Source: Phycisphaerales bacterium (GTDB taxonomy: Bacteria; Planctomycetota; Phycisphaerae; Tepidisphaerales; Tepidisphaeraceae). From it: DNA of 58,879 bases. A model generated the notes under the pieces. That model was not told the DNA's origin, did no database searches, and saw only the letters and a program-made list of their open reading frames with translations. The DNA lies in contig JADYZN010000036.1 of NCBI GenBank assembly GCA_020853095.1, forward strand, positions 1 to 58,879. The letters run 5' to 3'. Made by a program: the position numbers and the translations under genes. The number at the start of each line of letters is the position of its first letter. Positions within the stretch are counted from its first letter, which is position 1. This document shows, one piece after another, positions 48,907-49,587 of this stretch.

Positions 48907-49023
48907 GGATCGCTCCTCGGTTGAATCCGTTCGTAAAAAGTAACGACCGGGCGATTAAAAAGGAAATTTCGTGCAATCCATGCGCAACCTCCGGTCGCGG
49001 GGATCAGGAATGAATGTGCCACG

Positions 49024-49163
49024 GAGACACAGAGACACGGAGAAGAAAGAGAAAATTGCAGCTTTCGCGCTGTGGACCATTGGGTCCGGTGTATTCAATT
49101 ATCAAAATAAATGGTCCGCATGACACAAGCCACTATTTTGTCTTCTCCGTGTCTCTGTGTCTC
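49024..49163. repeat. 23-base inverted repeat element (GAGACACAGAGACACGG-type)
   Basis: The arm at 49024-49046 (starting GAGACACAGAGACACGGA) is exactly repeated in inverted orientation at 49141-49163, with 94 bases between. Each arm is itself built of short GACACA steps. The element could fold into a long hairpin. Similar 'GAGACACAGAGACACGGAG' sequences occur as dispersed repeats in many bacterial genomes. There is no gene inside. Confidence 0.75.
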
Positions 49164-49226
49164 TGTGTCAAACCCTTCTTCCTCCCTCCCCCGTTCCCGT
49201 GGCCGCCGCGCCTTGCCCCCATCCGT

Positions 49227-49478
49227 TGGCGCGGACAAGGGTGTTATTGGCGCCAAAATGACTCCCGCTGGCGCCAATAAGTCTTCCGATGGCGCGTTTC
49301 AGGGGCGCGATGGCGCGTTTTCGCCTCGCGATGGCGCGTTTCAGAGTCCCGATGGCGCGTTTTCGCCTCGCGATGGCGCGTTTCGGGGTTCCGATGGCGC
49401 GTTTTTGCCGCGCGGTGGCGCGTTTTAGAGTTCCGATGGCGCGTTTTGGCCTCTCAATCGCGCCGACCAAATTGGGTG
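49227..49478. repeat. 21-bp tandem repeat array, 12 units
   Basis: The core TGGCGC recurs at 49227, 49248, 49269, 49290, 49311, 49332, 49353, 49374, 49395, 49416 and 49437, exactly 21 bases apart, with a twelfth degenerate core (TCGCGC) at 49458. The central units read GATGGCGCGTTT plus a 9-base variable part. The first three and last units are diverged. All frames are largely open because 21 is a multiple of three, giving GAFSPRD-type heptads on the plus strand and KRAIGTL-type heptads on the minus. I find no start site or codon signal for a real gene. Confidence 0.9.
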
Positions 49479-49587
49479 TGATTCAGCCGAAGCGGCAAGG
49501 GGTCGATAAAAATGGATGTTTCATGCAATCCCTGCGCGGGATGGGTTCGTCAGGAAACAGGATGTCGATGGGAATCGGAAAATTCGC

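Follow-up and report, generated by a model that had tools for sequence, protein, structure and literature searches.

A non-coding tandem array in 21-bp steps in a Phycisphaerales genome, its empty site in a same-genus species and its probable link to a methyltransferase unit

The stretch of DNA analysed here, called the window, covers 58,879 nucleotides of contig JADYZN010000036.1 (C36) of a Phycisphaerales bacterium and includes an array of twelve units set 21 bp apart. This array is very probably a non-coding satellite belonging to a class of bacterial tandem repeats, 20-21 nt in length, that is constant in size and variable in sequence. The class itself is already known, reported but unexplained; what this analysis adds is the connection with a methyltransferase unit and, in a species of the same genus, an empty site. 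Our overall account, in which a satellite of this class sits in a gene-less derivative of that unit and has its phase kept by reading of one face of the helix, is plausible but tentative.

On the plus strand the core TGGCGC is found in 11 copies, at 49227, 49248, 49269, 49290, 49311, 49332, 49353, 49374, 49395, 49416 and 49437, and the core of unit 12, at 49458, is TCGCGC, a degraded form. Tandem Repeats Finder (TRF) scored the array at 168 for period 21 and at 250 for a higher-order period of 42, with 0% indels. The initial annotation had described an exact 21-bp array of twelve TGGCGC units at 49227-49478. Its spacing is indeed exact, in 21-bp steps over 49227-49437, but its unit sequence is not, adjacent units being different at 5-12 of the 21 positions; the array proper finishes near 49468. 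Across the 3.6-Mb genome, a pattern of two cores at 21-bp spacing had 26+6 matches, mostly within three arrays, whereas its reversed control had 1+1. A chance origin of the spacing is therefore excluded.

Two types of unit make up the array. Units 1-3 (49227-49289, plus strand) have TGGCGC followed by G or C and are of the kind found upstream of a methyltransferase gene on contig C6. Units 4-12 (49290-49468, plus strand) are mostly of the TGGCGCGTTT type, as on contig C10, with a 42-bp higher-order repeat and the TCGCGC core at the end. The leader immediately to the left (49205-49226, plus strand) is common to the C6 leader that lies between the methyltransferase start and the array there. Positions 49205-49295 are 87% identical over 91 bp to C6 (L009 3789-3879), and units 4-12 are 76% identical over 178 bp to the C10 paralogue; the left part thus being C6-like and the remainder C10-like, we regard the window array as a composite. 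Variable parts recur between units and 42-bp duplications are present. The alternation of two types of variable part that had been noted for the array holds in units 5-8, where there is a 42-bp duplication, but not across the whole. A CRISPR array was rejected on this anatomy: the core is short, the variable parts recur, and with the 42-bp duplications there are no unique spacers between near-identical repeats. A palindromic unit like that of REP elements was likewise rejected, the self reverse-complement score of the main window unit being at the level of shuffles (p 0.96).

The interval contains no credible gene, as the initial annotation had stated (coding score 0.00). The suggestion that the array is a minisatellite coding for a heptad-repeat peptide of the KRAIGTL or GAFSPRD type draws on the fact that 21 is a multiple of three, on one minus-strand frame that is open for 100 codons, and on the C6 copy of the array, whose open frame is continuous with the methyltransferase. 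We consider it very improbable and have rejected it. In none of 14 arrays did the substitutions follow codon position (the window array gave p 0.33), stop codons interrupt the other five of the six frames, and translation of the window array matched no Pfam family above cut-off. In about half of the 14 arrays conservation is block-like, with a core set against a variable part.

Transcription of the array as a repeat RNA, either a sponge or a small RNA, with a unit length suited to an RNA-binding protein, appears improbable. The plus strand does fold better than dinucleotide shuffles (z -2.5), hinting at a structured RNA on that strand only, and in Bacillus coagulans repeats of the 52-nt sister class are transcribed (PMC8161180, PMC8625621). 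However, the minus strand is unremarkable (z -1.25), an Rfam search at the array gave no match, and around it a single weak promoter-like site was found and nothing resembling a terminator. Moreover, the Halobacillus arrays described below are positioned behind a terminator.

The proposal that the array be looked for elsewhere in the genome (G000) was borne out, with TGGCGC arrays found at C10:505-738 and C6:33810-34024 in addition to that of the window. TRF analysis of an 864-kb sample detected three further non-coding arrays of exact period 21 and unrelated sequence, at C12:4941-5184, C40:91730-91882 and C40:173853-173947. TGGCGC is absent from three of the six arrays. Comparison of consensus units with shuffles divides the period-21 arrays, at least six in number, into four unrelated families; one pair, C6/C40b, just reaches the 95% null level. 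Exact intergenic matches at lags of 21, 42 and 63 numbered 31, 28 and 18, in a sample that includes arrays located by sequence, compared with 0-1 at lags of 19, 20, 22 and 23. When contigs were picked by size alone, the lag-21 count for this genome was 8 against a mean of 2.05, a modest excess that comes essentially from two arrays. The same sampling gave a strong excess in G188 (24 against a mean of 2.11) and little excess in the sister species, G001, or in the relative G013. Apart from the 21-bp arrays, the 864-kb sample has a single long non-coding tandem structure, a CRISPR-like array with the repeat CGGTTCACCCCCACGGGCGTGGGGAAAAG and a period of ~61 (L135 12622-13327; G000:C40:92622-93327), which has a 21-bp array within 1 kb of it.

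The window array is part of a piece of ~610 bp, at approximately 48970-49579, that is present here and absent from the same-genus species G001. The flanking genes are collinear in G001 on both sides, at 82-85% identity, and 53 bp occupy the site from which the inverted repeat and the array are missing; an empty site in a relative is thus found for this piece, as for a mobile unit. The inverted repeat, of CACGGAG type, has its left arm, with the left border of the element, at 48980-49047 (plus strand), 96% identical over 68 bp to the sequence on the stop side of the C6 methyltransferase. Its right arm, at 49141-49170 (plus strand), is 93% complementary to positions 49017-49046 of the left arm, with 94 nt between them. 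An imperfect direct repeat of ~60 bp borders the piece and is single in the empty site. The left member (48949-49009, plus strand) partly overlaps the border of the inverted-repeat element, and the right member (49501-49562, plus strand) aligns with it at a score of 50, against a shuffle maximum of 33, the two being moderately alike. At the ends of the piece no common sequence was found beyond the array on the right side, and no recombinase was identified. Three other array loci also have no array in the G001 sequence examined, which with the window locus makes four.

The inverted repeat (CACGGAGACACAGAGACACGGAG, two arms and a loop of ~94 nt) occurs at some two dozen sites in G000, including 49017-49170 of the window, and is found also in G013 and G077 and in other families of the class. 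It lies near five of the six 21-bp arrays of this genome, and many copies have no array. As a constant companion of such arrays it was rejected, being near none in G188 or G137. On C12 (L158 6684-7004) there is an insertion that carries the inverted repeat without an array and measures ~320 bp, compared with ~53 bp in G001.

What are probably graded copies of a larger unit are found at three places in the genome. On C6 the order is an arm of the inverted repeat, an intact methyltransferase gene on the minus strand (domains N6_N4_Mtase and Mrr_cat), the leader and the array. On C10 an arm and the last bases of the gene are joined directly to the 5' part of the gene, followed by the array, so that relative to C6 there is an internal deletion of ~1.6 kb and only the two ends of the gene are kept. 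In the window the inverted repeat is followed by the C6-like leader and the array, with no trace of the gene. The inverted repeat and the array here match both sides of the intact C6 gene in the same order and orientation. To judge from these alignments, the window piece is probably a derivative of an inverted-repeat, methyltransferase and array unit that lost its gene, and such a loss would be its most economical reading. Alternatively, the inverted repeat and the array could have come together by chance, the former being common, dispersed and free of arrays at many of its sites.

A remnant on C70 (L118; G000:C70:40492-40721) consists of the 3' end of the methyltransferase beside a copy of the inverted repeat, without a 21-bp array. 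On C6 (L009 2015-5527) the methyltransferase-Mrr gene adjoins two proteins that match the candidate defence families PDC-M19B and PDC-M19A, and this neighbourhood is possibly a defence island. Beside the array and the methyltransferase remnant on C10 (L008 837-2429) is a P-loop ATPase of the Sll1717 family that weakly matches a model of an anti-phage protein.

A functional tie between the array and the methyltransferase, whether as a cluster of target sites or as a region that controls or reports methylation, seems quite improbable to us. In its favour, the array and the gene are collinear on C6, with a remnant of the gene on C10, and the C6 reading frame passes through the array into the methyltransferase. 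Homologues of the enzyme in related genomes, however, have no such array adjacent, for which reason the array was rejected as its general partner, and the other arrays of this genome have unrelated sequences and other neighbours. Mobile restriction-modification genes can insert with a long target duplication. The methyltransferase unit resembles them in leaving remnants at several places, and the window insertion does so in its bordering ~60-bp direct repeat, single in the empty site; it differs in that these direct repeats are moderately alike and belong in part to the inverted-repeat element. To our knowledge, no 21-bp array figures in the description of such insertions.

Arrays of period 21 with other sequences were found in G188, G077, G137, G199, G237 and G010. 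A search of 60 relatives with the window array itself gave only a 27-bp match, in one of them, and the same-genus genome had no array match. A scan of a genome collection for GCGCCAA at 21-bp steps, with period and core fixed by design and part of the matches coding, detected arrays in distant phyla as well, among them those of Halobacillus, Sporosarcina, Evansella, Tannerella, Prevotellaceae, a spirochaete and others. Three Halobacillus records (L256, L314 and L332) have an array at an orthologous place, directly after the terminator of an ftsW/rodA-like gene; these consist of 13, 20 and 5 units, and the unit sequences differ and are species-specific. Core-to-core steps in the Bacillales were 21 bp in 135 cases, 20 bp in 14 and 19 bp in 7, with none of 22-39 bp.

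Three further observations concern repeats in other genomes. G199 (L171 6338-9445) has a 21-bp array of GGCGCCAATAAAGATGGTATC type inside an open frame of 1036 codons, the start of which resembles the iron-sulphur subunit of a molybdenum hydroxylase; the array is possibly an in-frame peptide linker. In G013 (L194, L197, L205 and L207) the motif CCGAACGAACCCAA is dispersed in small intergenic clusters with steps of ~21-24 bp; these may be a less strict version of the 21-bp arrays. G188 (L214 14426-17301) has a long non-coding array of period ~66 and ~42 units, which is probably a CRISPR array.

The recurrence of the period supports the view that the fixed 21-bp spacing is not an accident of the window array. 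Among the units of the six arrays in G000 we inferred 206 substitutions and no net shift of register, and at the indel-to-substitution ratio of the local intergenic DNA 11.4 indels would be expected. This comparison is indicative only, because the ratio comes from 2,058 aligned intergenic bases and the edges of the arrays are themselves defined by register. The argument of the initial annotation from the two-turn spacing finds partial support in both points, since the period recurs in unrelated sequences of the genome and the register has survived substitutions beyond what the local indel ratio would allow. For this particular array, strong selection to keep it is less credible, because G001 does not have it and showed no array in the sequence examined at three other loci. 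A/T content has a 10.5-bp component at p 0.001 against shuffled units but p 0.02-0.05 against the intergenic background, for which reason the signal is suggestive at best; it fits sensing of helical phase without deciding the matter. Taken together, the kept register, the lack of a codon signal and a period that is common without a common sequence favour something that senses helical phase.

The main rival is a serious one. The array may be a minisatellite that evolves neutrally and whose two-turn steps reflect a bias of mutation: slippage, template switching or unequal recombination would copy blocks best when strands re-align in helical phase, so that any seed would reach 21 bp with no benefit to the cell. 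Such copying would give the same static picture. It would account for the common period of unrelated sequences and for the 42-bp block duplications inside the window array, and it agrees with the failure to find four of the array loci in the sister species and with a copy number that varies freely between Halobacillus species. The deficit of indels relative to substitutions argues against it, as do the three Halobacillus genomes, where an array has persisted at a single position despite turnover of its sequence. Nor do we know of any described mutation process with a two-turn step, a point that we count against this explanation. On balance we hold neutral copying to be possible, if on the unlikely side, and tentatively keep as our working proposal, a plausible one, that the two-turn phase would be maintained by binding or bending.

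Constant-size tandem repeats of 20-21 nt in bacteria were reportedly described by Subirana and Messeguer in the Journal of Bacteriology in 2020. The repeats of this class vary in sequence but keep to a size of 20-21 or 52 nt; a genome has several families of them, most are non-coding, and their cores are short and conserved (PMC8161180). The authors pointed out the match between 21 nt and two turns of the helix and suggested a polymerising protein or a small RNA (PMC8161180, Subirana & Messeguer, IJMS 2021). The window array has the traits of this class and we therefore assign it there: its unit is 21 bp, it has at least 4 units (11 intact cores and one degraded), and it is non-coding and largely species-specific, with a short core conserved within the array. 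The genome likewise has several families that agree in length and differ in sequence, four in six arrays. A further trait of the class is a core common to most arrays of a species; here TGGCGC is found in three of six and no core is common to all. Also unlike the published report, one family here runs collinear with a methyltransferase gene and with deletion copies of that gene; that study of Bacillus mentions neither planctomycetes nor a methyltransferase (PMC8161180). Intergenic tandem repeats with high structural variation are described for lake Planctomycetota (PMC9426551), and those of G000 are similar in being intergenic and in being gained and lost, the two traits that the comparison covered.

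Neither of two other well-known kinds of repeat fits the array. REP/BIME elements are intergenic repeat clusters in many copies; the window units differ from them in not being palindromic and in their fixed 21-bp steps. Plasmid iterons are direct repeats of ~20-22 bp in helical phase, and the unit length and direct orientation of the array are iteron-like. Even so, an iteron-type replication control region, as the initial annotation had entertained, is hardly credible here. The array is chromosomal, its neighbours are ordinary genes (CBM9-like, BNR-repeat and sodium/solute symporter), the neighbours searched included no recognisable replication gene, and one genome carries several arrays of unrelated sequence. 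Searches of plasmid and phage sequences with the window array, and of plasmids with a Halobacillus array, gave no match, and a plasmid or phage origin was rejected.

In the account that we prefer, a unit of inverted repeat, methyltransferase and array would have lost its gene and so given rise to the window piece. The array would grow and shrink by whole units, of 21 or 42 bp. One face of the helix would be read, either by a candidate protein that polymerises along the repeats or through their summed bend. The sequence within units could drift freely provided that the phase was kept, which would explain constant length with free sequence. Against this account, no binding protein was identified in the analysis, and the sister species does not retain most of the array loci examined. 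Because the families of this genome have no common core, a single sequence-specific protein cannot serve all of the arrays.

A bolder version, to which we give little credence, gives the two-turn-phased arrays a function within mobile methyltransferase units: by assembling along one face of the array, a protein would aid dispersal or insertion of the unit. The window would hold a gene-less derivative that still carries the platform. If this were true, the class of constant-size satellites would gain a mechanism, namely recognition of helical phase rather than of sequence.

This genome offers several unrelated families of arrays, one family that is tied to a methyltransferase and has graded deletion copies, and a sister species with an empty site. 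The cultured Halobacillus species, with an array at the same place and different units, are useful for testing. A fixed length combined with a free sequence points to something, whether in the cell or in the process of mutation, that measures two turns of DNA.
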